Below are positions 7,529 through 31,996 of a stretch of 32,137 bases of DNA, piece after piece. The position numbers and the translations under genes were made by a program. Source of the stretch: a virus. The notes beneath the pieces were generated by a model, which saw only the letters and a program-made list of their open reading frames with translations, was not told where the DNA came from and did not search any database. The DNA lies in the IMG/VR virus record IMGVR_UViG_3300009024_000047, positions 1 to 32,137 of that record; one strand, written 5' to 3'. Numbering within the stretch: the first letter of the stretch is position 1; each line of letters begins with the position of its first letter.

Positions 7529-10500
7529 TTAAAACCCTGCTAAAATCTTGTTGGCACTTCCAATAAGAAACTGTTTGCGCTCGTCTAGCCTGTCAAGAAT
7601 AAGTTTCTTTTGATCGTCTGGCATTCTCATATTGCCCCTTACAGAGTTCATCTGACCACTTACTTTCCTTAAAGCGTTATCAATAGCCCTTATCCTTGGT
7701 AGGTATTTAATTTCTTCTGAGTATCTCTGTCTGGCTTTTTGTAACCGCTCAGTATCTCCAGATGATAGAGCGCCTTTAATCTCATCACCTGCGACAAGAA
7801 CCTTGTCTCTCTTCTCAATGTAATTGCCATAGTCTTCACGACTAGAAACGCTTCCTATTATCTTTCTGACAAACGGAATCTCTCGGAATATATCTTCATC
7901 GAGTCCCTCTTCATACACTCGAACTGGTAACTCGGCAGTACGCTGGACAAACCTACCAACACCACCTGTTGCATACTCAAGCCAGAAGTTCATCACATCT
8001 GGTGATACATCTACGAATCCCTTCGTGTCAGGTGTGCCACCAGTAAGATTGTTCAGCATGTTTGTTACCCATATTGCAGATGGGTTTGTTGTTGACCAAT
8101 ACCTTTGACTGTCTGGACCCCGGTCATTGAAAGCAGCCTCTTTGTAGACAGGCTTCTTCGCGTAATCTTCGTTCTCTATAACATCAATGAATGGGTCTAG
8201 GATTGTAGGAGCCGCAAAATTAGTGAAGCTCTCTGTCCCGCCAATCGGATTGATTACATCTACGATAGTTCCCACGATAGAAGACGTAGCTTTCCCAGCG
8301 GAGGTTCCGCCACGAGCGGTTTGACTGGTGGCACGACCTATGTTGTGAGCCATGTTCAAGCCATACGGCATAGGTATCGCTATGTATGATCTCTCCGTGA
8401 AGCCGAATGGATCAGGCAGAATTAAGTTATGTTCAAGAATGTACGGTTGTATCTTATCATAAACAAGACGGCCATCTTCATCCTCGTCAGACAGCATTCC
8501 GTTCAACTGGTCCTGAAGGAAGCCTGCTGCTATGGTGCCTGCCCAAATCTTTTGAACCTTCTTCGACTTCAGGGCTGCATTTAAAAGTGCAAATGAACCT
8601 TGTAGAGACGCATTGTAGAACAGGTAAAATGCGTTCATGAACGTCTTGTATTCACCGCCCTTGGCAAAGTTCACTGTAACATTACGAGCCGCTTGCGCTG
8701 CGCGTTCTCTGGAGAAGCCACGATCCAGCATAGCCTTGTAAGTAGAAACACGAATGCCGTTCTCAATGACTGTGTTGTAGTTCTCAATAGTGCTTAGTAA
8801 CGATCCAGCCTTCTTACCTATAAAGCTATTCTTTACAGAGTTCCATTTACCCCTGACTCCCTGATCAGATATATCACCAAGTAACCCTTGGATATTCTCC
8901 ATTTGATCTGCGATTGTAGTCATCTGGTTCGTAGCGTTTTGACCACCAGCCTCAACAAAATCTTTGTAGTACTTTGACCAGTCGGAAGAGTCATCATTGT
9001 TTATGATTGAACGCTTTATTCCTTTAAGCGCCCCAGCAACACCCTTCATAATCTCAGTAGTCATTGCCTTCTCATCATACTGGTTGATGTTCACACCAGC
9101 GGTTTGAAGGTCTCGCAACAAGTTGGTCACAAAGAACTCAGGGTTGTATGATGTATTAATGCTGGACAAGTATCTGTTGACCTTGCCCATAGCACGAACA
9201 ACACCAGCAAGGGGTGAGGAACCCAACCCGACATCACCCTTCAGAGCTTTAGCTATTCTTTCATCTTCAAGTCTAACATATACATCCTGTCCATTCTCTT
9301 TGACTGTGAATATGAAGGGGTCCAGATACGCTCTTTGATCTGTAGCCCTAACAACTTTCCCACCCCTTAGCTGTTCAGTCTTTGGTAGAGCTTTCAGTAT
9401 AGTACCAAACTCTTTTGTTACAGTGGGGTCTGAACGTAGCAGTTCTAGGAATGATTGACCAACCTTATTGCGCTCACTTCGTGCAACGGCACCCATGTTC
9501 TGGGTTAGTGTTGTAGCCAAGATGTCTGTTGCGTAGTCGTATCGACCTGTGACACGCCTATCTTCTCGTCCTCTGGCACCGAATGGAGCGCCCATGCTAG
9601 GGCGGCTAGGATCGGTGGTCTCATTGTCGGGATCAATCTTACCCCTCAATGGTACATAAGAATTGTAGTTTGACTTCTGTACTACAGTGCCGTCTTCAAG
9701 TTCTACTTGATTAAACTCAGCAGGTATTAGACCACCTTGAGTACGAGTGTTGTTGGTATCCCTGACTACATTTCTTACCGCACGATCCAAGGCACCAAGA
9801 GCCGCACTATTCTGGTTGTCCAAACGAGAGAACCAAATAAGGATTGCGTCTGCTTCAGCATCGCTCATTCCAGAGCCACTGTTATTGTCTGGGTTTATAG
9901 ACCTGACGTATGCGTTGCGTTCCTTCGCATGCTTGGCGTAAAGATATGCGTCACCTATTGTTTGGCGATCACTACCTGAAGTTTCAATAGCTTGACTTAT
10001 AAATCCTCTACCACTCTCTGATGCTGCATCAGATACAGAACGAAGGTTATTCACTTGATCCTTGGTAATGTTCAAATTCTTCAGAGCTTCACGAGCAGTC
10101 TGGTAGATTGTCTTCTCTCTTTTATCTACCTCGTTACCGACGATGCCATGATACAACTCTTCCTTCAGATAAGTGTCCATAGCATCAACGATGGTAAGAC
10201 CCTTCGCCTTCAGCTCTTGGATCATCCTACCTACAGGAAGCATAGAGTCTTGGAACTTGGTTAATATGCTGTCCGCTTGAGCTTGAGCCTTATCCTTGCC
10301 TACAATTCTACCAAGACCTTTAGCTATGAAGTCAGAAGAACGAGCATAATTTATGTCCACTTCCTTCTGATTTATCTGACCTGCTATGGTGCTGTTGTTT
10401 AATGGAGGCGGCGCAACACTATAACGCCTGCGACCATCCACAACGGCGCGATCTTTTTTCTCAAGATCAGGAAAGAATGTTTGTATATCAAAGATGTAAC

Positions 10501-13500
10501 CGCTTCCCAGCTTGCGTGGCTTCAATACCAGCTTCATGGGTGGAGCCTTGAAGGGAATATCATTCCTCCATTCAAGAACAATCCCACCCTGACTCGGATA
10601 GCTTATTACATTTTCCCCATCTTCATTTCCCTGTTTGTCCCATCTTTTCAATAGGTCATACATAGCGTTCAGTACATTGTACTTGCCATTAGAGAACCGA
10701 AGAAGCTCACGATCATGACCGCGTTGCTGAATGTGGTACAGGCCACGCCCAACTTCAGTGGCACCTTCACGTTGTTCAATGCGTCTATGCTCACCCGCTG
10801 GTAGAACTATGGGTATTCTTGTGCCTCTACTGTCTATCATAGACCCGAACACAGGAGAGGATGAACCATTCTTATTCTTTACAGGAGCTGCAACTAATTG
10901 ATCTGCATTGGATGGGCTGACTGAGAATTTGCGTTGTGTTGTTAAGTCTTGCCCAGAAAGAAGCTGTTCTATAGCGGATCGATCTACTGCGGGAAGCTCA
11001 TCAGCAGTGGATGTTTGATCAGTATCTTCATCTACTGCAGCCTCAACACTACCAGCCCTGCCTTCTTCCCATGTAAAGGATGGCATCAGACCTATCTTCT
11101 GATCGGCAAAGATAGTGTCTTCTATTTTAGCGTCTCTGTTTTGCTCACCATATGGGCCGAAGTTAAGCCAGCTATTCTGACCTCTTGTCTCTGATGTTAT
11201 CGCTGCAACGGCAGAGCCAGTAAACAAACGCACATGTGCTTGCCATGCATTCTCTTCCCCTGTGGCTCGGAAGCCAGACCCTTCAAGGCCGTGACCGAAA
11301 GCATCATGAACTGCACGGAACAAATCGTTTGCAACAACTTTTTTCTTTGGTCCATCTAGCGATCCAGACGGCCATTCTATTCCAGTATCCATCATCATTG
11401 GGTTGGATGATGTTTCTGTGTCTACCTCACCTGAACCATATCCCTCATCTGTAGGGAATACACCCATAGTCTTATTGGCACGAATATCCCTCATCGCATT
11501 GAAGGGGCTGGACAGGTATTCCACATTGTCTGGTATATTCAGGTCAGTAAACCAGAACCTATACCCTGCATCCTCCAACGCACGATACTGATCTATAGTT
11601 TGGCTTACTAAGTTTTCGTATGCCTCTCTGACCACTGGGTCTTCAGGTGCATTCTCCATCTCTTCGTATGCTTGGGCTATGCGTGTCGCAAGGTCTACAT
11701 TGGGAATAACAAACTCAGACTGTCTTCTTAGATCGATACCGTTATCAAGAGCATATTGCTCCGCTACCGCTACTAATTTTTCGTCTGGGCCTGTCGCGCC
11801 TTGGACTGTTGGCGCACCTTCAAGAGGCGCAAGGCTCCCTGACGAATCCCGTCCTCTTCCACTTCCTGACGGAACAGATTGGAAACTTGGGTCTGCGAGG
11901 AATCCAAGGCTGTATCTCCTGTCGATGGGAGAGTTTCCCCGCTGAGAGGCGTCTTGGAGTTCTCCAGTCCTCTCATCGCTCCTAAGAATTGATCCATTGG
12001 GCTTCGCATCTTCATACTCCCTTGCCGTTTCGTCTAATTTATTTCGGTTGACTTCTTTTCTTTCAAACCAAGGTATGTCAGCACGACCCGTAACCTTGAA
12101 GTCTCTGGGTATAATACCATTCTTTGGCTTCTTTATAAAGGCTTCAAACTCTTTCATTCTAGTGGGTGACATGTAGACAAACCCACCATCAGACAGTGGA
12201 TACCGAACAACAGGTGCGTTCTGTCCGCGTATGTACGTCATACCTGAAGAGAATGTATCAGTCTTTCCCTCAGTAACGGAGGTGCCGATAGGAGACCCAT
12301 TAATAATAGCCTGAAGGGTGCCGTGGTTTACAACTTGCTCACCCTCTATGACCCATGTTTCCCAGTGCCAACGCCCTAGACTTGCATCCTCTGGACGCCC
12401 AGCAAGTTCGTAAGCCTTTTGTACGTTCTTCCTCATACCATCTTCAAGAAGGCGTGTTGTTAATATGCCTCTCGGCCCACGGAAGATACCATTAAGACCT
12501 TCTTTGTTTGGCCCAATGCCATCGTATATATTGGCACCGCCGTACCTTCCGTCATCCCACAAGTGCCGACCCTGAATACGATCCATCACAAGAACATCGT
12601 CCTTGCCACCAACCAATAGAATGAACGACAGAACTTTGTTGTCTATCCCAGCACTCTTAGTGCCTGACAAGAATGCTTCCCGAATATCAGAAGCAGATAC
12701 GTTAGGATCAGTCATGCCCTCATGAATGACATCAATAACTGTTTGGTTAGAGTCACCGACCAACTGAGACATAGCCTTAACCAGTTTGGCTGCGGCATTT
12801 ACATTCATAGTAACTTGTTTACCCGGTGAACCCTCTGGGATTACCGATGAAACAGTAGTCATCCATCTGTCAACGTCATCATCCGTCAGTGGTTCGCGCG
12901 TTGCTTTCTCAAGAATTGGGTAGGCACTGTCTATGATGTCAATGAATGCACCCTCTTGCTGCACCGGACCAGCGCCTCTAGAGAGGATGCCCCATACGAA
13001 CAAGTCCATAGTCATGCGAGGAGATGCCTCGCCGCTCTGGTATATTCCTCTTATCTGGTCAACAAATTCAAATCCCTCATCAACACCCTTCTTCAGTTCT
13101 GGCGTTAGCTGATTCAGCTTGTCTGCCATGGCCTGCGGGTTTTGGGAGTACTTAATGGCAACCAATGGTGGGGCGGGGATGTAATCACCACCCAAACCTT
13201 CTTGCATTGCCTTCATCCAACCCTCTACTGACATCATAGCGTCTGGGTTGTTCGCAATGATTTGTTCAATTGAACTATTATTTCTGTTGGAATTGGCTGG
13301 GGTATAGGCCTGAGTGATTGGGAGGACCGCTGGAGAGCCGTTGCCTTGTATTAGCAGCTCGTATGGCAACTTATGCGCTCTCGCATCCTGTGGCGCTACA
13401 GGGAGCTTAGGGTCAAAGTTTCTTATTGACTTTCTATTTACATCTTCAGTTACTTCTGCATCAGGTTCAGGCAAACGATCACGCTTGCCAATGTTACCGC

Positions 13501-16447
13501 TCTTCACATCATTGAATATATCTTCGACACTGTTGATGCCGACATCTTGGTTGGCCTTAAAGATAGCTCCGAAGAAGTTCTTGATACGCTCGAACAGAGT
13601 TTTGGGACGACCAATAACCTTGATCTTACCGTCAGCATAATCACGGAACATCTCCGCTATAGCTTCTTCTTCTATAGATTCAGGAGTATAATTTAACTTG
13701 CCCGAATACATTGCTGTCGCACGATCAAGGTAAGTATACTTTCTTTCGACTGGCTGGCCGTTTTTTATTTGCACATACTTGCGCTGCTTGACTGCACCAG
13801 TGAGAGATGACCACTCAGCATCAGAGAACAGTCCAAGACTTTTAAGAGCGTGGATAACCTCATGGTTCATGACGCCCTTCAATATATCAAACTGCTCTTG
13901 AGCTGACTTACTTGGGTCAGCAACCTCCATAGACAGAGATATTACCCTGTTGGAAGGAGTGTTATGAAATTTGTTGGCTGCCGTGAAGTCGAACACACCT
14001 TCTGCAAGTTCAGGGTTTTCTTGCTGAAGAAGTTCAGGGGCAACCAACCTTTCAGCAGTCAGCTTAACGTCTGGAAGATTTAGATTGTTCAGGCGCTTAC
14101 GCAATGCATTGAATACTTGCTGTCGTTTGGCGTCGAACGAATCTTTTCTTGTCGTATTGACCGCTCTGTTTGCAATCTCACGAGCCTTGTTAGCCAAGTA
14201 TTGCTCAGAAGATACTTGAACTGGAGCGGACGGCTCTGTCAGTCTTGCCTGAGCTGCATCTCTTAAATACGTTTTGGTTTCTATGTCCGATTCAATTTCA
14301 GACAAGAGACCTTTGACCTCTTCGTTAAGGGCCACCTTCTTAGACTGCTTCTTCAGCTTTGCTAAGTTTTGTTTCTGTAAATTTATGTCACGATCATAGT
14401 TGCTTATGGACTGACGCAATGCATCTATTTGACCCTCAGTAGTCCCCGCTTGCTGAACCTCAGACGGCAATATGCTCCTTGGCTTTTCAGTTGATGGGAT
14501 ATTAACTGACTGAGGTCCGCTGTTTATCCTACCCTCTGTTTCAGCTATGACCTGCTGTGCTTCAGAGATTTGATTCCTTACCTCTTGTGCTTCAGTAGTA
14601 AGTCTCAAGAACTTTGCTCTATCGTTCTCTTGATCCAATGCGCGGCGAGCGTCTAAATCAATCTTCTTACTGAGTCCGACAAGGCCAGTCTTGCGCTGAA
14701 CGAAATCATTAGTTGACTCGCCCTTCTTCCTCTTGACTGAACTATTGCCGTATATATCTTTGTTCAGATTGGACAGAGTACTTCTGTAGGAAGCGATCTC
14801 ATCAGATACAGCTTCTACATCAGGCTCTATGTCATAGCCCTTTTGTGTTCTTCTCAGGATGCCACGGTTGACCATCTCATCTCGGATGTCTTTGGCAACT
14901 TGACGCGATACGTTCTTAACCCCCGTATCCCTCACTGCTTTCTGTATAGCTGGTTCAGTGTATTTCTTACGAGACTTTATCTCCTCCACGGCACGATCAT
15001 ATTGATCCTGTGTGAATGTCTTATTCTCTACAGGTTGGAACCTAGATGTCCCGCCAGACACAGGTTTCTGTTTGGTGGCTTCTCTGGTTGCCGCCCCTTC
15101 ACCTACGATACGGCGTATCTCATCAAGTGACGCAGGTTGCTGTTCATCCAGACCTTGAATCTTGCGGGTGTTCTGTATGATCTGGCGCTCTCCCAAAGGA
15201 AGCTCAGACATAGGCACTGAGTTGAAGGGTAGCGTTGCTTCACGAGCGGCTTTACCTAAAGTTACTATCTCTTGTTCAGGAGTTAGCCTGTCATTTTCTT
15301 CAGGACTAGGCGCAGGTAGTGCCAACATTTCCTGTGGCTCCACCTCTATTGTGGGTTCAACAGTAATGTCTTCGTTTTCACGCAGCTCTGATTCGTTTAT
15401 TCTGGCTATGGTTTCTTGAGTTCTTGCACTCTCTTCTTCAAAATCTTCCTGAAGTTCCGCAAACTTTTCCTGTTCTTCCTGAGCCGCTTTCTCCTTGCGT
15501 ATGTCTCCACCTATTACATTGGTAGTACCTCTTACAGTACCACCAGTAATACCTGCAGCTATCGCAACGTCCTCATAGACCTTCATGGCCTCGGCGTCAT
15601 CAATAGGTAGGCCAGCTTGATATCTGTTTATAACCTCTTGGCCTATCTCTGTAGGAACTTCAGCGACAGTACCTGCGCCCACGCCTTTGGCAGCGCGGGT
15701 GAAAACACCACCAGACCGAATGACCGCTGGGTTCAGTACTTTACCGATCAGCAACCTGTCCACAATAGAGTCAAGTGCCGCCTGTGGTAACGCTGACAGA
15801 AAGGCTGTGCCTTCGTTCATCTCTGTGCGAAGGCCGCGATCAATTGCTTCTTTCTGCGCTTCACGGTTATCACCATAGAAGTAAGGAATGTTCGCAGCAA
15901 AGCCACCGATCAAGGCACCCGCTACCCTAGCACCGGGTATTGGTATAGGCGCTGCAACTGCGGCACCTGCTGCCGCACCACCTAGACTTACACCAAGCTG
16001 TGGTACTTGCTGACCAAGTGTCTCGAAAAAGAAAGAAGCAGTCTCACCAACAGTGTCTATCTCTTCACGCTTTGTTAGCGCCTGTGCCTTCTCTGCTATC
16101 TGCTGTTCATTGGTCTCTACTACAGAACTACCGAAGTCTTGAAGACCCTGCAGGCCAGAGATGGAGCCTATGCCCTCTAGAGTTGAGCCGTATGCTTTCT
16201 GAAGGGCATCAAACCCAAGACCAACCGCTGTACCAAATCCACCTTTCGGTTCTGGTTCTACAGCCTCTTCCACCTGATCTTGTTGAGATGGCGCGTAACG
16301 ACCCTCTGCCCGTTGAGCAATTAAAGCCTCTTGCTGTCCTACGAATTGATTTATACGAGATTGCTCTTCAGGACTTGGAGTGTCGCCCGAAATATTTACG
16401 CTGTAAAACTGTCCAAACTGCGGTCCTTTTACGGATACAATACCCAT
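7529..16447 (-). CDS. Giant polyvalent virion protein, 2972 aa
   Basis: This multidomain protein resembles phage large polyvalent proteins, which are packaged in the capsid and ejected with the DNA to act on the host. Visible in order: a disordered start; a Gly/Ala-rich hydrophobic segment near residues 140-195 that could insert in membranes; a winged-helix-like region near 500-560; charged coiled-coil stretches; a metallopeptidase-like domain with H862-ExxH866 and downstream Glu (E926-E932); an unassigned domain near 1090-1440; a domain with H1714DAFGH1719 and E1753; a possible toxin-like nuclease region near 1870-2010 (H1905, H1911); and an LPD38-like helical region (NPEFFVTNLLRD near 2435). 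The ATG at 16447 follows AGGAG. No lysozyme motif is seen. Last gene of the leftward structural operon. Confidence 0.88.
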   Translation of the reverse strand: MGIVSVKGPQFGQFYSVNISGDTPSPEEQSRINQFVGQQEALIAQRAEGRYAPSQQDQVEEAVEPEPKGGFGTAVGLGFDALQKAYGSTLEGIGSISGLQGLQDFGSSVVETNEQQIAEKAQALTKREEIDTVGETASFFFETLGQQVPQLGVSLGGAAAGAAVAAPIPIPGARVAGALIGGFAANIPYFYGDNREAQKEAIDRGLRTEMNEGTAFLSALPQAALDSIVDRLLIGKVLNPAVIRSGGVFTRAAKGVGAGTVAEVPTEIGQEVINRYQAGLPIDDAEAMKVYEDVAIAAGITGGTVRGTTNVIGGDIRKEKAAQEEQEKFAELQEDFEEESARTQETIARINESELRENEDITVEPTIEVEPQEMLALPAPSPEENDRLTPEQEIVTLGKAAREATLPFNSVPMSELPLGERQIIQNTRKIQGLDEQQPASLDEIRRIVGEGAATREATKQKPVSGGTSRFQPVENKTFTQDQYDRAVEEIKSRKKYTEPAIQKAVRDTGVKNVSRQVAKDIRDEMVNRGILRRTQKGYDIEPDVEAVSDEIASYRSTLSNLNKDIYGNSSVKRKKGESTNDFVQRKTGLVGLSKKIDLDARRALDQENDRAKFLRLTTEAQEVRNQISEAQQVIAETEGRINSGPQSVNIPSTEKPRSILPSEVQQAGTTEGQIDALRQSISNYDRDINLQKQNLAKLKKQSKKVALNEEVKGLLSEIESDIETKTYLRDAAQARLTEPSAPVQVSSEQYLANKAREIANRAVNTTRKDSFDAKRQQVFNALRKRLNNLNLPDVKLTAERLVAPELLQQENPELAEGVFDFTAANKFHNTPSNRVISLSMEVADPSKSAQEQFDILKGVMNHEVIHALKSLGLFSDAEWSSLTGAVKQRKYVQIKNGQPVERKYTYLDRATAMYSGKLNYTPESIEEEAIAEMFRDYADGKIKVIGRPKTLFERIKNFFGAIFKANQDVGINSVEDIFNDVKSGNIGKRDRLPEPDAEVTEDVNRKSIRNFDPKLPVAPQDARAHKLPYELLIQGNGSPAVLPITQAYTPANSNRNNSSIEQIIANNPDAMMSVEGWMKAMQEGLGGDYIPAPPLVAIKYSQNPQAMADKLNQLTPELKKGVDEGFEFVDQIRGIYQSGEASPRMTMDLFVWGILSRGAGPVQQEGAFIDIIDSAYPILEKATREPLTDDDVDRWMTTVSSVIPEGSPGKQVTMNVNAAAKLVKAMSQLVGDSNQTVIDVIHEGMTDPNVSASDIREAFLSGTKSAGIDNKVLSFILLVGGKDDVLVMDRIQGRHLWDDGRYGGANIYDGIGPNKEGLNGIFRGPRGILTTRLLEDGMRKNVQKAYELAGRPEDASLGRWHWETWVIEGEQVVNHGTLQAIINGSPIGTSVTEGKTDTFSSGMTYIRGQNAPVVRYPLSDGGFVYMSPTRMKEFEAFIKKPKNGIIPRDFKVTGRADIPWFERKEVNRNKLDETAREYEDAKPNGSILRSDERTGELQDASQRGNSPIDRRYSLGFLADPSFQSVPSGSGRGRDSSGSLAPLEGAPTVQGATGPDEKLVAVAEQYALDNGIDLRRQSEFVIPNVDLATRIAQAYEEMENAPEDPVVREAYENLVSQTIDQYRALEDAGYRFWFTDLNIPDNVEYLSSPFNAMRDIRANKTMGVFPTDEGYGSGEVDTETSSNPMMMDTGIEWPSGSLDGPKKKVVANDLFRAVHDAFGHGLEGSGFRATGEENAWQAHVRLFTGSAVAAITSETRGQNSWLNFGPYGEQNRDAKIEDTIFADQKIGLMPSFTWEEGRAGSVEAAVDEDTDQTSTADELPAVDRSAIEQLLSGQDLTTQRKFSVSPSNADQLVAAPVKNKNGSSSPVFGSMIDSRGTRIPIVLPAGEHRRIEQREGATEVGRGLYHIQQRGHDRELLRFSNGKYNVLNAMYDLLKRWDKQGNEDGENVISYPSQGGIVLEWRNDIPFKAPPMKLVLKPRKLGSGYIFDIQTFFPDLEKKDRAVVDGRRRYSVAPPPLNNSTIAGQINQKEVDINYARSSDFIAKGLGRIVGKDKAQAQADSILTKFQDSMLPVGRMIQELKAKGLTIVDAMDTYLKEELYHGIVGNEVDKREKTIYQTAREALKNLNITKDQVNNLRSVSDAASESGRGFISQAIETSGSDRQTIGDAYLYAKHAKERNAYVRSINPDNNSGSGMSDAEADAILIWFSRLDNQNSAALGALDRAVRNVVRDTNNTRTQGGLIPAEFNQVELEDGTVVQKSNYNSYVPLRGKIDPDNETTDPSRPSMGAPFGARGREDRRVTGRYDYATDILATTLTQNMGAVARSERNKVGQSFLELLRSDPTVTKEFGTILKALPKTEQLRGGKVVRATDQRAYLDPFIFTVKENGQDVYVRLEDERIAKALKGDVGLGSSPLAGVVRAMGKVNRYLSSINTSYNPEFFVTNLLRDLQTAGVNINQYDEKAMTTEIMKGVAGALKGIKRSIINNDDSSDWSKYYKDFVEAGGQNATNQMTTIADQMENIQGLLGDISDQGVRGKWNSVKNSFIGKKAGSLLSTIENYNTVIENGIRVSTYKAMLDRGFSRERAAQAARNVTVNFAKGGEYKTFMNAFYLFYNASLQGSFALLNAALKSKKVQKIWAGTIAAGFLQDQLNGMLSDEDEDGRLVYDKIQPYILEHNLILPDPFGFTERSYIAIPMPYGLNMAHNIGRATSQTARGGTSAGKATSSIVGTIVDVINPIGGTESFTNFAAPTILDPFIDVIENEDYAKKPVYKEAAFNDRGPDSQRYWSTTNPSAIWVTNMLNNLTGGTPDTKGFVDVSPDVMNFWLEYATGGVGRFVQRTAELPVRVYEEGLDEDIFREIPFVRKIIGSVSSREDYGNYIEKRDKVLVAGDEIKGALSSGDTERLQKARQRYSEEIKYLPRIRAIDNALRKVSGQMNSVRGNMRMPDDQKKLILDRLDERKQFLIGSANKILAGF

Positions 16448-23808: not shown

Positions 23809-24741
23809 CTAGAAGCCGAAACCACCGAACCGACTCGCAAGGATCGCACCAAGAGGAGCCTGCCCTTGGCCGGACGGTGAGCCGTACTGAGGGCCATACG
23901 ATTGAGGGGCATTCTGAGACGCGCCTTTACCACCGCCTTTACCACGCAATGCTGCCATCAATTCGTTTCCCGTTGCATCGCTGAACACTGGGTTTGCATT
24001 TTGTTGATCTGCCATTTGTTGATCTGCCATGGCTTGGGACATATCATTAATCTGAGTGCGCTCCGACGAACTCATCATTTCCATAGGTCGTGGTGCAAGA
24101 CGTTGTGAACCACCGAGAATATCGTAGTTCTGCGAAGCATGCATAAACGCTGGACTCATGTTTGGAGCTGCGTATCCTTGGCCGTATTGCTGACCGTATG
24201 GTGATCCGTATTGTTGACCGTATGGTGATCCGTATTGCTGACCGTATTGCTGCCCATACCCTTGGCCGTATCGTGATCCGTACGGCTCATACCTTTCATT
24301 TTGACCGTATTGAGGATATCGGTTGCGAGCCGCAGCCATGTAGTACGGCACCTGACCCGCACCCTGCTGCGATTCAAACTGACTGAGTGCGGCTTGGCGC
24401 ATCTCTGGAGTTATCTCTGTCGGAGCAGGTTGCCTTTGGCTATTTATGTAATCGTTGTAACGCTTTAGGTTCTCGGCATACATGTCAGCATCTGCTGTGG
24501 CACCGCTTAGTGAAGCTATCCCGCCCGGCATGGCTGAAGGGCCATCATCACTGTTGCCCACGTTTGCATGGAACGCATCTGCTGCAGCCTGAGCCGCTGC
24601 CGTTGGGGGTCCAGTGACACTATCCTTGAGCTTCTCAAAAAAGCTCTTTTCTTTTGGCACTGACGCCGATGATGTCTTTGGTTTTGGGTTTATTGATGTT
24701 GTTGGTGCTGATAGACTTACGCCGTAATCTGGTTCTGGCAT
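23809..24741 (-). CDS. Low-complexity virion protein with Tyr-Gly-Gln repeats, 310 aa
   Basis: The sequence is mostly disordered: a Ser/Pro/Lys start, a short helix (KSFFEKLKDSV), an Ala-rich stretch, a helical central block (ADMYAENLKRYNDYINSQ and TPEMRQAALSQFESQQ), then a Tyr/Gly/Gln-rich run at 144-190 with repeated YGQQYGSP units. The C-terminal third has Met/Gln-rich helices and a Gly-rich end (GKGGGKG, FGGFGF). No enzyme motif is visible. Its placement between the LysM protein and the lysis cassette suggests a minor virion or ejection protein. AGGAT precedes the ATG at 24741, three bases after the previous stop. Confidence 0.72.
   Translation of the reverse strand: MPEPDYGVSLSAPTTSINPKPKTSSASVPKEKSFFEKLKDSVTGPPTAAAQAAADAFHANVGNSDDGPSAMPGGIASLSGATADADMYAENLKRYNDYINSQRQPAPTEITPEMRQAALSQFESQQGAGQVPYYMAAARNRYPQYGQNERYEPYGSRYGQGYGQQYGQQYGSPYGQQYGSPYGQQYGQGYAAPNMSPAFMHASQNYDILGGSQRLAPRPMEMMSSSERTQINDMSQAMADQQMADQQNANPVFSDATGNELMAALRGKGGGKGASQNAPQSYGPQYGSPSGQGQAPLGAILASRFGGFGF
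24172..24312 (-). repeat. Coding repeats of Tyr-Gly-Gln units
   Basis: The run holds PYGQQYGS repeated in tandem plus looser YGQ and YGS units (residues 144-190). At the DNA level the tandem units are almost identical 24-base blocks, so slippage could change copy number. Confidence 0.8.
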
Positions 24742-24743
24742 AT

Positions 24744-26033
24744 TTAAAATCCTACGAATTGAGAGCCAACAGTACTTGAGCCTTTCCCGCCCTGCATCTG
24801 CGGTTGGAACGGAAACGAGTTCTGTGGCTGGTATTGTTGGTTGAACTGTGGCTGGTATTGTTGGTTGAACTGCGGTTGATATTGTTGGTTAAACTGCGGT
24901 TGATATTGTTGGTTAAACTGCGGTTGATATTGTGCATATGAACTTACTTGTTGAGGGTAAGGACTAGGCGGCGGAGGCAGCATACCGTAACTCTGCAACT
25001 GTTGGCGAGCCTGCAGGAAACCTCCCAGACCGGGTGGCATATCCATAGGAGCCATGGTTGGGAACCTAGGTCCGGCTTGAGGACCATCCATAGGTGGCAT
25101 GGTTGGGACCATAGAACCAGATTGAGGACCATCCATAGGTGGCATGGTTGGGCCTGCCTGAGAGAGCTGCCGAAGTTCTTCCGCTGTTCTGGGGTCTAGT
25201 GCGGCTTGAACCATCTTCGCCTTGTCGTCGTAACGATCATTCATAAGGCGTCCAACCCCCCCACGACGAAGACTACCACCACCTAGAGCAGCGATACCCC
25301 TATAATCTGAAGCGTCTATATCACGAAGTTGGGAATTAAGATTTTGAATTCTTTTTCTTGCCTTTGGATCACCAGTTAAGGGTGCGCCCTCCAAAACTTT
25401 TTTCGCTCTTTCGCTCTGCACTCGACCTCTAAGATTTTTTCGTTCGTCAAACAACCCGCGCATCTCTGCTAGAGACTCAACTTCGCTATCTACATTGCTC
25501 GCATCATAGCGCATCTGCTCGGCTAATGCGGCATCCTCGAAGCTTCTGCCTTCTCCAGTTACCCTAACAACGTCTCCAGCCAATACGTTTTGCTTCCCTG
25601 CGAACCTTGGATTCATAGCGACAAGCTGCTCAACGCTCATACCGTGTTTACTCGCAATGTCTTGAACGCTAGTCGGCTTCCTCAAGGCGTAGGAAAGGTC
25701 TCCCTCATACTGCCCCTCACCCCTTAAAGTGTTCCGTATGCTTTGACGATCCGGCATAACCTGACGAGCTAGTTGTCTGCGCGTCATTTCTGCTTGCCGC
25801 ATGACCGGGTCCAATGCTCCGCGTCGGACTATATCAAACAGCCCTCGTGGGTCATCTTTGTACTGGTCACGAACAGCGAACGCCGCTTGAAAAGTACCCT
25901 TCTCGTATTGGGGGTCTCGTCGTGCATCACGCATAGAAGCCCAGTAATCTTGCGTAAATTTCTTTACGTCAGCCTTACGTTGACTTTGAATTGCTCTCTG
26001 TTGAGCAATCTGCTGCTGTAAAGTTAACGCCAT
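24744..26033 (-). CDS. LysM-domain virion protein with Gln/Pro repeats, 429 aa
   Basis: A Gln/Arg-rich helical N-terminus (QQQIAQQRAIQSQRK, DYWASMRDARRD) is followed by a LysM domain at about 114-159 (TSVQDIASKHGMSVEQLVAMNPRFAG, then VLAGDVVRV). LysM domains bind peptidoglycan N-acetylglucosamine chains. A charged helical region then leads to three PTMPPMDGPQ-like repeats (295-333) and a tail of QYQPQFNQ repeats (368-404). The protein could anchor an ejected or tail-tip component on the host wall during infection; this role is inferred. ATG at 26033 has AGGTG just upstream. No catalytic cell-wall motif is seen. Confidence 0.8.
   Translation of the reverse strand: MALTLQQQIAQQRAIQSQRKADVKKFTQDYWASMRDARRDPQYEKGTFQAAFAVRDQYKDDPRGLFDIVRRGALDPVMRQAEMTRRQLARQVMPDRQSIRNTLRGEGQYEGDLSYALRKPTSVQDIASKHGMSVEQLVAMNPRFAGKQNVLAGDVVRVTGEGRSFEDAALAEQMRYDASNVDSEVESLAEMRGLFDERKNLRGRVQSERAKKVLEGAPLTGDPKARKRIQNLNSQLRDIDASDYRGIAALGGGSLRRGGVGRLMNDRYDDKAKMVQAALDPRTAEELRQLSQAGPTMPPMDGPQSGSMVPTMPPMDGPQAGPRFPTMAPMDMPPGLGGFLQARQQLQSYGMLPPPPSPYPQQVSSYAQYQPQFNQQYQPQFNQQYQPQFNQQYQPQFNQQYQPQNSFPFQPQMQGGKGSSTVGSQFVGF
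24822..24932 (-). repeat. Tandem 24-bp coding repeats (QYQPQFNQ)
   Basis: Four full eight-residue units plus a partial fifth make a 24-base DNA period. Units differ only at synonymous third positions, pointing to recent tandem duplication. Confidence 0.88.
25035..25151 (-). repeat. Tandem coding repeats (PTMPPMDGPQ-like)
   Basis: Three units, two of them nearly identical at the DNA level (GGACCATCCATAGGTGGCAT appears twice on the plus strand), encode Pro/Met-rich segments with a period of about 14-15 residues. Confidence 0.8.
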
Positions 26034-28583: not shown

Positions 28584-28603
28584 ACTAAGTTTTCACACTT
28601 AGT
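28584..28603 (-). repeat. Intergenic hairpin ACTAAGT-6-ACTTAGT
   Basis: A perfect 7-bp inverted repeat with a 6-base loop includes the TAA stop of the upstream adhesin-like gene and lies 27 bases before the gp10-like start. It has no T run on the minus strand, so it is more likely a processing or mRNA-stability hairpin than a strong terminator. A TATACT box just downstream could be a promoter element. Confidence 0.45.
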
Positions 28604-29378
28604 AAATCGGCGGATTTGCAGGGCGTAGTGCCATCGACATCGCAACAAGCGCACCGCTTGTGGTGGACTCACGGAAAACAGGGAGGGCAGGTGTCCCCGA
28701 TTTGTCGTAGTTTACAACTGCTATACTGGATAGGTCTTCTGCTCCAGAGGCAACGCTTTGCGTGTAAAAACCAACGGGGACGCTTGTCGATGTACCAAAG
28801 TTGTCCATAGACAACCCGTCCATACTGTTGCCTCCCGCGTTCCCTGTTTGAATAACCACCGATCCTTGAGTGGTTATCGTCAAAGACGGAGTAGTTATCG
28901 TACCTACGTTGTTTGCAGTGGCAGTAGTAGTTGTGACATCAAAAGGAGTTGATGTATCGACGTTCCTTAAAAAGTACACAATTACACTGTTCTTTCCGTC
29001 AGTGTCGCCGCTATAAACAAGAGGGACATACACCTGAGTATCGGGTGTTGACCCCATAAACTTGTAGAACAGCTTAACCTGACACCGATCTGTAGTCGCA
29101 GTATTCTCAGAACTCGCGTATGTCGAGCCTGTATAGTCCCCCGCAGCGGCAGAGCTTTCTACAACCATGTCCGATTCTCCAGCATTAGCTGTAAGATCGG
29201 TATTAACCATTATTGCAACTGCAAGATCATTTTCCTGCAGTGTCCTTGGCAATGACCCATTAGTAAAGGACTCTGTAATATTAGCACTACTACTTCCAGA
29301 CTCAGCTATAAAACCTAAGACCTCTATCCCCGGCCCGAATGTAGTGTTTGAGTTAAAAAGGGTTGCTGCAAGAGACAT
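28599..29378 (-). CDS. Beta-rich tail or adhesin-like protein, 259 aa
   Basis: The protein is rich in Ser, Thr, Gly and Val and predicted by eye as all-beta, with strands such as VKLFYKFMG, SVIVYFLRNVD, SLTITTQGSVVIQTG and LVAMSMALRP. Such composition fits a jelly-roll or concanavalin-like domain in a tail appendage or capsid decoration. No signal peptide or catalytic motif is visible. The ATG at 29378 overlaps the preceding tail gene's stop as TAATG, tying it to the tail-fibre group. Receptor or glycan binding is plausible but not shown. Confidence 0.72.
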   Translation of the reverse strand: MSLAATLFNSNTTFGPGIEVLGFIAESGSSSANITESFTNGSLPRTLQENDLAVAIMVNTDLTANAGESDMVVESSAAAGDYTGSTYASSENTATTDRCQVKLFYKFMGSTPDTQVYVPLVYSGDTDGKNSVIVYFLRNVDTSTPFDVTTTTATANNVGTITTPSLTITTQGSVVIQTGNAGGNSMDGLSMDNFGTSTSVPVGFYTQSVASGAEDLSSIAVVNYDKSGTPALPVFRESTTSGALVAMSMALRPANPPIY

Positions 29379-29728
29379 TAAGAAGCCCCCTCTATTGTCT
29401 TCTTACCAATGTAAGAAGTGCCATTGTCTACCGTCAGGAAATTAAAGACATCCACCTTCCCGCTCGCCGTAACGGGGGGAGTTGTGGCGCGGTCCCAGTC
29501 AATCGAGGTCGGCCACGTTATGGCGCTACCATCCCCAGTAATTTCAAGTTGAAACGCTTGCCCAAACCCTGAAGGGGGAGGGTTACTAAATGTTAACGTA
29601 GTCGCTCCGCTTATTGTCTTGGAAAAGTAAGTTCCAAGATTTAAATCTACGTCTGTTCCTGAAACACTTACTGCTCCCTGACCAAGGGATTTAGCCTGTA
29701 AGCCGTGCTTTATCTTGAAGTTAGACAT
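29378..29728 (-). CDS. Short tail protein with shared beta module, 116 aa
   Basis: The product opens MSNFKIKHGLQAKSLGQG, a common opening of marine phage tail proteins, and then has VDLNLGTYFSKTISGATTLTFSNPPPSG and a terminal FNFLTVDNGTSYIG strand. The same DLxTGxYF ... LxFxNPPxS and terminal strand pattern occurs in the two genes upstream, so the three are paralogous modules. ATG at 29728 is chosen over the upstream one at 29764: GGGG lies seven bases before it, and it overlaps the end of the propeller gene by 8 bases. Likely a trimeric tail-fibre component; binding target unknown. Confidence 0.75.
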   Translation of the reverse strand: MSNFKIKHGLQAKSLGQGAVSVSGTDVDLNLGTYFSKTISGATTLTFSNPPPSGFGQAFQLEITGDGSAITWPTSIDWDRATTPPVTASGKVDVFNFLTVDNGTSYIGKKTIEGAS

Positions 29729-31628
29729 CAGAGTACCCCGCATAGTAAGTAGCGCCGCCGTCATTAGTCGAGAAGGTAATCAACTTACTGTTGCTGTCCT
29801 CGTTGTATGTAGGCGCAGCGCCCCCCGTAAAGTTAACCGTGTCCTGATACACTGGGGCATAGTAGGTAACTCCGCTAGTGTAGAACTCAAAAAGAGATTG
29901 GTAAAAAGTATCTACTACAGTGCCATCTGTTAAGACAAATTTATTTTCGGACGGATACATCCCCGCTATGTCCCAATTCGTTCCGATTCCAGATGGAAGG
30001 TCTATAGAGCCAACAAGTGCGGCTGATGTAACATCCCAAGGGGTTGTAAGAACGTAGTTGTATATTCTATCCGGGATAAGATCCGTCCCGTAGTACAGGT
30101 GTGTGCCATCATCCGACAGAATAAACCCGATGTTGGTAACATCCGTCGCTAAAGTTAAGTTCTTTGATGCGTTTGAAGCAGTAGAGATATCCCAAGCGGT
30201 GGAGAGGTCAAACGTAGATATGGTCGAATTGTCAACTGGACCCGTCAAGAAAAACCTAGTTCCATCCGGTTTGAACCAAAGCCTTTCTGCATTAACCAGA
30301 CCCGTAGCCACGTTTTCTTCCGTGATCGTTCCCGTAAACGGAGGGTCTATCTCGTACTGATAGAGGGAGGATGCTTGCGTGGCGTAAGCATACCTGCCGT
30401 CATTTCTAAGATACCGACTCTTCGAGGCAAAACTCGGCGTGGTAACATAGTTAACTAAAGACATTGCCCTTAAATCAAAGGGCTTATCCAACTCCATCAA
30501 GCGGACTTGATTGTTTTCAAAACTAAGTGCATGTCTGCCGTCAGGTGTGAGAGTAAACTCAAACGTCCCGGTATCTTTATAGTAGGGGATAGCGGAAGTG
30601 CCGGACGTAAAGTTCGCTGTCGCACCGACATCCAACCCAAAACCCGTTCCACCCTTCTGGAGTACTTGGAACGTCTGGGAGGCAGGAGGATTTGTAAAAG
30701 AAAGCTCTTCGTAGCCGGAAGTGTCTACTTCAAAGTAATTTCCTGTAGACAAGTCTACAGACAACACATCTACTTCGGCATCATAAGCGTACAGATTATC
30801 ATCAATTCTATTTACAAAAATCACATTGTTTCCAGAGTCTCCGAACACAGGAGAGCGCAAATCTGTATCAATGTTAGTCTTGGTCTCCTTCAGCGTTGCG
30901 GTGCTGAGATCATACGCCGTAGACAAAGTGAAAAGCAGGAGGTTGTCGTTTGTTATATCAAGCCACAGCATCAGAGAGCCGTTGTCTGCAAAACTTATTT
31001 GCCCGTTTCCAGTCGCTCCAGAAATTGCCTGCGTACTTTCCGCACCCACGCTAGAGATGTCATACGGAGTACTTAGGGTGTAGAAGGACATCGTAGTGTT
31101 GGTTCCCTCTGTGAAGAAGATTTTAGTACCGTCATCGTTAAACGCGAAAGAGGTGAACCCTCCACCGCCACCGGGAACAAAGGACTGGGACTGAGTGAAT
31201 GTTGCCGCAGAAATGTCATACGCTGGATCAACGTCATACTCATACACCGTGTCTTCACCCGTGGACAAAACAAACATATGCCTCCCCGTGTCGGAAAGCT
31301 GCACCCATGTTGGGCTAGCCGTTTGAGTAGACACAGAAAAACTGTCTACTGGAGTTAGAGTGCTTGTAACGTCCCACGCCGTGGATAATGACAACCTCTC
31401 GACATTGTCGCTGGCCCCCCCGTCCAGAAGAAAAACCTGCAAGCCATCTGCTTTAAAAAAGATGTTATTTGGAGTACTAAGGCCTGCAATTGTGGAGGAA
31501 ACCGCCTCGTTGTCTAGGTCAATTACCCGGTAATTATCTTGAGAGGTGGAGGTTGTACCTGTTTTCAGAGTTGTTTGCCCTGACACCTGTACAATGTCTG
31601 CGACCTTAAAATCTTTTGTATTAGACAT
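29721..31628 (-). CDS. Tail-fibre protein with two beta-propeller segments, 635 aa
   Basis: About eight blade repeats of roughly 50 residues, each with a signature like LSTAYDLSTAT, are split into two groups: blades near 81, 133, 185 and 235, and blades near 381, 427, 475 and 527. Between them (about 290-330) lies the strand pattern DLSTGNYFEVDTSG ... LSFTNPPAS shared with the neighbouring small tail genes, and the ends carry the shared N-terminal KDFKV and C-terminal STNDGGATYYAGY motifs. It therefore looks like a short tail module enlarged by propeller insertions. Propellers usually bind glycans or proteins, so receptor contact is a reasonable inference. It starts and ends with tight overlaps to its neighbours. 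Confidence 0.8.
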   Translation of the reverse strand: MSNTKDFKVADIVQVSGQTTLKTGTTSTSQDNYRVIDLDNEAVSSTIAGLSTPNNIFFKADGLQVFLLDGGASDNVERLSLSTAWDVTSTLTPVDSFSVSTQTASPTWVQLSDTGRHMFVLSTGEDTVYEYDVDPAYDISAATFTQSQSFVPGGGGGFTSFAFNDDGTKIFFTEGTNTTMSFYTLSTPYDISSVGAESTQAISGATGNGQISFADNGSLMLWLDITNDNLLLFTLSTAYDLSTATLKETKTNIDTDLRSPVFGDSGNNVIFVNRIDDNLYAYDAEVDVLSVDLSTGNYFEVDTSGYEELSFTNPPASQTFQVLQKGGTGFGLDVGATANFTSGTSAIPYYKDTGTFEFTLTPDGRHALSFENNQVRLMELDKPFDLRAMSLVNYVTTPSFASKSRYLRNDGRYAYATQASSLYQYEIDPPFTGTITEENVATGLVNAERLWFKPDGTRFFLTGPVDNSTISTFDLSTAWDISTASNASKNLTLATDVTNIGFILSDDGTHLYYGTDLIPDRIYNYVLTTPWDVTSAALVGSIDLPSGIGTNWDIAGMYPSENKFVLTDGTVVDTFYQSLFEFYTSGVTYYAPVYQDTVNFTGGAAPTYNEDSNSKLITFSTNDGGATYYAGYSDV

Positions 31629-31996
31629 TACGCGGCCCCCTGAACGGCATACGCGCCGGAATAATTACTTCCACCATCCGATGTCTGGAGGGTGATAACC
31701 CACTGAGCGGTGGTTATGTCGTAAATTTCAGTGTCGTAGTTAACAGCTTTGTCGAAGTATATCCTATGCGTTCCACTGTCTGCTTTCAGCACAAAGGTTG
31801 CGTAGCCGCGTGACCCAGAAGCCGGAGCATTAGACAAAGTCACTAATGTGTCCTCGGTTAACGTAGACGTAAAGACTGAAGCAGTGGACAAGTCGGCTGT
31901 CATCGCTCCAGAAGCGGAGGTTAAAGCCGTCACCTTCTCGTGGAACGCTAAAGCCGTTACTCGGTTCTTGGCTTTGAAATCCTTGTCGTTTGCCAT
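31628..31996 (-). CDS. Short tail protein with shared beta module, 122 aa
   Basis: The N-terminal MANDKDFKAKNRV matches the opening of the next two tail genes, the middle has DLSTASVFTSTLTEDTLVTLSNAPASG, and the end has WVITLQTSDGGSNYSGAYAVQG. It is therefore the simplest form of the module seen in the propeller protein. AAAGGGA lies shortly before the ATG at 31996. Its stop overlaps the propeller gene start as TAATG, so the pair is co-translated. Probably part of the tail fibre or its attachment site. Confidence 0.77.
   Translation of the reverse strand: MANDKDFKAKNRVTALAFHEKVTALTSASGAMTADLSTASVFTSTLTEDTLVTLSNAPASGSRGYATFVLKADSGTHRIYFDKAVNYDTEIYDITTAQWVITLQTSDGGSNYSGAYAVQGAA

Follow-up and report, generated by a model that had tools for sequence, protein, structure and literature searches.

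A beta-module with two cargo sites shared by three tandem, probable tail-fibre genes of a phage

The locus described here raises the question of how a long, propeller-bearing protein is related to the two short proteins encoded on either side of it. The window analysed is the 32,137-nucleotide stretch of IMG/VR record IMGVR_UViG_3300009024_000047; it is one whole virus record, from a phage of probably marine origin. Three tandem genes in it encode proteins of 122, 635 and 128 residues. The original prediction, made from the sequence alone, held that the three proteins share one module, that four-blade propeller sets stand on both sides of a central strand pair in the 635-residue protein, and that a new receptor-binding protein had been created here from a duplicated short gene. 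We propose, with a probability of roughly 0.77, that all three are short tail-fibre subunits on one chassis, with two cargo sites that accept exchangeable receptor-binding domains.

On this proposal, each subunit would consist of an N-terminal tag and a C-terminal beta-sandwich module, and could take up cargo either where the two meet (site 1) or at the turn of a beta-hairpin within the module (site 2). The 635-residue protein would hold a five-bladed propeller in both sites, both being empty in its two neighbours. Each subunit probably attaches to a particular place on the tail through its tag, and may assemble into trimers. Related phages would keep tag and module gene by gene along the operon and swap the cargo, which may be one propeller or two, DUF7483, LamG or nothing at all. 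Glycans of the bacterial surface are the most likely ligands of the cargo, and a swap would retune adsorption and perhaps host range.

Common to all three genes are a short N-terminal tag and a beta-module of about 90 residues, whose halves we call N and C. Profiles of the two halves, built without the window lineage, were used to test the window proteins. The N half matched the 635-residue protein at residues 291–321 (expectation value (E) 3e-7), the 128-residue protein at 39–77 (E 2e-15) and the 122-residue protein at 35–62 (E 2e-11). The C half matched at 594–630 (E 2e-8), 81–124 (E 2e-17) and 100–118 (E 1.3e-3 only), respectively, the last being the weakest match of the three. Because the observed scores (25.9–52.1 bits for N, 14.6–59.1 bits for C) lie above the best of 900 shuffled sequences (9.2 and 7.6 bits), the module appears to be shared beyond chance, least clearly for the C half of the 122-residue protein. 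The predicted sharing stands for the tag and for both halves; the common final strand is a loose motif, with the versions DGGATYYAGY, DNGTSYIGKK and DGGSNYSGAY.

The likeness to known tail fibres runs through this module. Both short proteins matched the tail fiber families PHROG 9017 and PHROG 7760 along most of the module, the 128-residue protein with E 3e-10 and 1e-8 and the 122-residue protein with 2e-4 and 5e-5, whereas the 635-residue protein had no PHROG match at E up to 1. A search with the 128-residue protein found 298 phage records with E up to 0.01, often as weak matches, and in all six named-phage records fetched the module forms the C-terminal end of the protein. A sequence search of the PDB with the 635-residue protein gave no match at E up to 1, and a search with the module profile gave one weak match (E 0.7).

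AlphaFold predicted the 128-residue protein, the empty module, to be a single beta-sandwich (23 sequences; mean predicted local distance difference test score (pLDDT) 81.9, about 91 over residues 31–128). In this model, site 2 is the turn at residues 78–81, between the strand 69–77 and the next short strand, and site 1 lies ahead of the first module strand and behind the poorly ordered tag. Since site 2 falls in a hairpin turn inside the module and site 1 between tag and module, the insertion would be nested at site 2 only. Propellers do stand on both sides of the central strand along the sequence, as had been predicted; only the second of them splits the module. When the module model was compared with solved structures, the best eight chains scored Z 5.7–7.9, and seven of them were phage virion proteins: a capsid spike, a tailspike, a baseplate protein, T4 gp9 and TSP4 (three rows). 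The match to T4 gp9 had Z 6.5 (root-mean-square deviation 3.2, 88 aligned) and that to CBA120 TSP4 Z 5.7–6.0; values below 8 may reflect a common arrangement, and kinship of the module fold to phage virion proteins is suggestive only.

The propellers appear to have five blades rather than four. A single-repeat profile alone detects four clear units in propeller A (site 1) and two in propeller B (site 2), which makes the four-blade reading understandable. We rejected that reading on three grounds: the runs of five in relatives, the strand counts and the whole-propeller profile. The whole-propeller profile matched the 635-residue protein at 50–285 (model positions 20–259 of 262) and at 352–540 (20–219 of 262). 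In the AlphaFold model of this protein (22 sequences, mean pLDDT 66.5, predicted template-modelling score 0.47), propeller A has 20 strands in residues 43–283 (5 × 4), and propeller B has 18 in residues 356–568, modelled less confidently, which make up four full blades plus two of the strands of a fifth. Among repeat runs in closed open reading frames (ORFs) of relatives, 169 of 192 were multiples of five (147 of five units, 19 of ten, 3 of fifteen), and the 23 with other unit numbers are taken as missed or partial units; these ORFs came from loci found by searching with such proteins, near-duplicates included, one search supplying its best 80 of 525. Five blades are therefore predicted with good support for propeller A and less for propeller B. 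The strand list of the model contains two separate propeller sets, which argues against one continuous eight-blade ring, and profiles and related genes agree with the idea that each propeller is a domain of its own, added to the module that the proteins have in common.

Comparison with solved propellers was less specific. A profile of double-propeller proteins matched six PDB sequences (best 1l0q_A, E 3.9e-13), and a Foldseek search with the full-length 635-residue model gave 1555 hits with E up to 0.001, of which the 50 listed were propeller proteins of general kinds or complexes of these. The best listed PDB matches of this model are other propeller types and do not settle the blade number.

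The same layout recurs in relatives, whose loci (numbers prefixed L) are mostly metagenomic contigs, near-duplicates among them, that came from searches with these proteins. Both halves were found in 84 distinct proteins, again counting near-duplicates; 12 belong to the window lineage and 2 to named phage records. In these 84, the gap from N to C is quantised: 1–9 residues in 36, 262–298 residues with one propeller in 42, 524–526 residues with two propellers in 4, and 315 and 325 residues in the last 2, where the insert is DUF7483. DUF7483 also stands ahead of N in L087, and LamG (Laminin_G_3) does so in L084 and L082. The layout is thus a widespread grammar in which the sites are empty or hold a propeller or DUF7483, with LamG found at site 1 and two propellers at site 2. 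Outside the window lineage, 22 distinct proteins (counting near-duplicates) have the double-propeller form. One gene of this form, at L101:7219-9149, is split into two ORFs (PNppp, ppC) and is a single ORF in L103, through a frameshift or a sequencing error. As a side observation, 62 phage records match the protein P0002, mainly over its DUF7483 part among the matches listed, and 26 of the 62 are Pelagibacter phages; the literature search found no text on DUF7483.

Locus comparison confirmed that versions without propellers exist in related genes. The clearest case is the first gene common to L113, L132 and L115, in which site 2 is empty in L115 and holds different propellers in L113 and L132. 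Up to the end of N, DNA identity is 93.5% (L113/L132), 90.3% (L113/L115) and 84.4% (L115/L132); past N the similarity breaks, and it resumes at C with 96.2%, 71.9% and 72.7% for the same pairs. At the protein level, the C half of L115 is 89–96% identical to those of L113 and L132. A second empty and filled pair at site 2 is L095 and L101, whose halves share 92% and 91% identity. Site 1 is empty in L022 and holds a propeller in L091 (halves 92% and 87% identical); it is likewise empty in L095 and holds LamG in L084 (first 23 residues identical, N 70%, C 93%). The class of cargo at site 2 differs between L096 and L151, and in L124 an empty gene adjoins a gene with two propellers. Similarity endpoints fell within 36 nucleotides of a cargo boundary in 76 of 192 cases, compared with 24.4 expected if uniform, a count that lends weak support, as endpoints are non-independent, near-identical loci (L101/L103, L115/L116, L085/L087) are included, and slower divergence of the chassis would also put endpoints at boundaries.

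Sequence distances point to largely separate inheritance of chassis and cargo. After removal of two near-duplicates from a set of 38 proteins, the distances of N and C in the remaining 36 correlated at r = 0.70 (p 0.0002); correlation with the intervening propeller was r = 0.10 (p 0.05) for N and r = 0.18 (p 0.01) for C. The tie of cargo to the halves thus appears far looser than the tie of the halves to each other. In pairs with both halves at least 75% identical, the site-2 propellers were less than 60% identical in 61 of 67. Distances of the two propellers within one protein were uncorrelated (r = −0.08, 19 proteins), and such propellers are in general no recent duplicates; the exception is L091:2965-4905, whose two propellers are each other's best match.

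Position in the operon appears to be tied to the chassis. In the KDFK-type operon, 31 genes were assigned to three positions by tag motif, with the module halves not used in sorting. Genes without a detected half and motif-missed tags (among them L021:5001-6938 and two window genes) were left out, and identical genes and other window-lineage copies were dropped. Identity of the module halves was 0.75 within positions and 0.46 between them (permutation p 0.0002); identity of the propellers was 0.52 within and 0.49 between (p 0.015 for all, 0.13 for site 2). First genes (12) were filled at both sites in 11 cases and at site 1 only in one. Second genes (11) comprised 1 empty, 6 filled at site 2 only, 2 with DUF7483 at site 2 and 2 filled at both. 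Third genes (8) comprised 4 filled at site 1 only, 1 at site 2 only, 1 empty (window lineage) and 2 with other sequence ahead of N, one DUF7483 and the other of unassigned type. By eye, the window trio follows the KDFK order; the 128-residue protein alone has the tag motif, and the other two were placed by eye. These data suggest that the tandem genes hold position-specific tags and modules while the cargo varies. Given these position-specific tags and halves and the 22 outside proteins of the double form, the paralogues look old and the cargo looks changing, and the idea that a new protein was made here from a duplicated short gene is unsupported as it was put.

Several observations weigh against the proposal, in addition to the way in which the relatives were gathered. 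In the 635-residue model the module halves are mostly below pLDDT 50, and their assembly around the propeller is unconfirmed there. The module resembles solved structures only moderately (best Z 7.9), and one of the best eight chains is not from a phage (6o38_C, Z 6.4). The C half is weak (E 0.067) in Lentibacter phage ICBM2, the sole cultured phage with the site-2 form, and was not found by profile in L077/L008 (the same gene); after the propeller it is recognisable by eye in both. No close relative of the window lineage was found to have an empty site, L001–L003 being doubly filled and L004 and L005 cut by a contig end. Finally, N correlated with either propeller in 19 double proteins at r 0.24–0.27 (p 0.02–0.03); since all the correlations between halves and cargo, though weak, are nominally positive, chassis and cargo show some dependence on each other.

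Among alternative explanations, the one that survives best, which we still consider unlikely, is that the empty forms arose by deletion from an ancestral double-propeller form. The KDFK first gene is doubly filled in 11 of 12 cases, and the one without a second propeller, in L115, would fit a deletion. This view has to accommodate the propeller-free module in fibre proteins of other phages, both among the 298 records, many of them weak, and in the six fetched, and the use of the same sites by another cargo fold.

Less likely still is the reading in which the propellers serve as lactonase- or gluconolactonase-like enzymes on the host surface and not as binding domains. Pfam Lactonase or SGL exceeded its cut-off in five scanned proteins, the 635-residue protein included, where Lactonase reached 22.7 bits against a cut-off of 21.7 over residues 104–283 only. 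The Lactonase family is seven-bladed and is matched here only in part, whereas the repeats run in fives and propeller A has 20 strands; in NCBIfam, none of seven scanned proteins had a match that reached the cut-off.

We judge it quite improbable that N and C are independent small domains, with propellers merely standing between them. The unassembled halves of the full-length model would be compatible with such an arrangement, as would the genes that have tag and propeller without the module and the seven further propeller ORFs with N and no detected C, four of which are cut by contig ends. It is opposed by the 36 empty proteins in which the halves lie 1–9 residues apart, one of them modelled as a single sandwich at pLDDT of about 91, and by the co-variation of the halves across unrelated cargo. 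Assembly chimeras at repeats, which the mis-assembly-prone repeats of about 50 residues and the broken gene copy in L101 (intact in L103) might suggest, are a very improbable source of the contig differences, as the same boundaries recur in many contigs, gap lengths are quantised, and the isolate ICBM2 has a propeller after N, albeit with a weak C half.

The two-site chassis proposed here could have a wider role, which we put forward tentatively, at somewhat less than an even chance. The operon may form a plug-and-socket adhesin array in which three or four fibre subunits each carry a docking tag of their own and at most two standard sockets, with whole propellers, DUF7483 and LamG moving among sockets, genes and phages at precise boundaries; a phage could then display up to about six exchangeable heads, and propellers of SAR11 and other marine bacteria could be a shared pool. 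A receptor-contacting end is suggested by genes with the same fibre anchor and different ends: L008 (N and propeller) and L154 (Collar, E 9e-23) are 85% identical over the first 128 residues, and ICBM2 gp51 (N and propeller) and ICBM1 gp53 (annotated tail collar) are 81.5% identical over the first 27. An anchor joined either to N and propeller or to a tail collar would fit such a position.

The propeller family is present outside phage records too, and some of these contigs may be viral. In loci from bacterial genomes (L155–L231, the best 77 loci of 128 relatives), 82 of 109 repeat runs had five or ten units; 36 of the 77 loci are labelled Pelagibacteraceae or Pelagibacter (SAR11) and 14 other Alphaproteobacteria, and the proteins are often long. 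A phage-like double form occurs on one 6.6-kb contig binned as Flavobacteriales. Propellers also occur on a scaffold without N or C: Roseobacter phages CRP-13, CRP-9 and CRP-2 have three five-unit propellers, and CRP-738, in the same set of loci (L014:5443-9081, L016:2907-6629, L017:2829-6494, L019:1026-4421), has runs of four and five units with about 440 other residues between them.

A fibre chassis that takes exchangeable domains at two cargo sites is known in kind and unusual in clarity. Domain shuffling is general in tail fibres and spikes (PMC10684548), and the main text of that survey of domain mosaicism contains neither "propeller" nor "nested". The evolved Dit of lactococcal skunaviruses is the closest parallel in print and the best functional one: it has internal inserts, its ends align with the uninserted form, and the inserts are present or absent among phages (PMC10688798). 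Those inserts are one or two carbohydrate-binding domains, and recombinant phages were affected in adsorption and plaquing (PMC10688798). The differences are that its chassis is a distal tail protein with other cargo, whereas here several tagged genes stand in tandem, with two sites and cargo of three folds. The receptor-binding protein Gp45 of Staphylococcus phage phi11 likewise contains a five-bladed beta-propeller, with an N-terminal strand closing the last blade; there the propeller stands between helical stem and tower domains, and the accessible text describes no empty or exchanged form (PMC4901313). The literature search, beyond whose reach most subscription papers lay, found no paper on a two-site chassis; "propeller" is absent from the main texts of the cobavirus and CRP-9/CRP-13 papers, and no relevant paper linking pelagiphages with propellers was found by titles and the starts of abstracts.

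The proposed arrangement would be a clear-cut case from nature of a phage fibre domain with a nested insertion site, one that accepts more than one cargo fold and is both empty and filled in versions of one gene among relatives. Its boundaries separate cargo from chassis, making receptor-specificity change in marine phages testable gene by gene, and they would supply annotation rules for many unnamed phage proteins.

The coordinates of the three genes agree with the ORF listing, and the features are collected in Table 1. For the 128-residue gene, a start at 29728 (MSNFKIKHG...) is more likely than one at 29764; from 29728 it overlaps the 3' end of the 635-residue gene by 8 nucleotides. The junction of the 122- and 635-residue genes and that of the 128- and 259-residue genes each have a one-base overlap (TAATG), and such overlaps of 1, 8 and 1 bases along the operon suggest coupled translation.

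Table 1. Features of the three tandem genes, in window positions
Feature	Positions	Strand	Content	Basis
122-residue protein	31628..31996	-	tag MANDKDFKAKN and module, sites 1 and 2 empty (NC)	ORF listing, profiles built without the window lineage
635-residue protein	29721..31628	-	tag, predicted five-bladed propeller, N half, predicted five-bladed propeller, C half	ORF listing, profiles, model
128-residue protein	29378..29764	-	tag MSNFKIKHGLQAKSLGQG and module, both sites empty	ORF listing, profiles, model
Tag of 635-residue protein	31527..31628	-	residues ~1-34 (MSNTKDFKVADIVQVSGQTTLKTGT...)	alignment, low pLDDT
Propeller A (site 1)	30774..31502	-	residues ~43-285	whole-propeller profile E 7e-47, 20 strands
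N half, 635-residue protein	30651..30758	-	residues ~291-326	profile
Propeller B (site 2)	29862..30587	-	residues ~348-589	whole-propeller profile 352-540 E 7e-25, 18 of 20 expected strands
C half, 635-residue protein	29730..29855	-	residues ~592-633	profile

Elsewhere in the window, there are matches to primase/helicase, exonuclease, Sak annealing protein and endolysin. Upstream of the point corresponding to its right end, L001:1137-3368 encodes a 743-residue protein with tail-fibre PHROG matches and an NC module at residues 419–503, whose C-terminal part is similar by eye to the 259-residue protein at window 28599-29378. The 2972-residue protein at 7529-16447 has an LPD38 domain near its C-terminus and is perhaps an internal virion protein. 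A 738-residue virion protein at 26341-28557 matches PHROG 3287 (profile length 524) and has, by eye, an apparent added stretch at residues ~100–270 with VxVTGxxATGEVG-like repeats; similar repeats fill the 369-residue protein at L001:3368-4477. Low-complexity repeats (QYQPQFNQ / QQYGSPYG) occur in the two proteins at 24744-26033 and 23809-24741.

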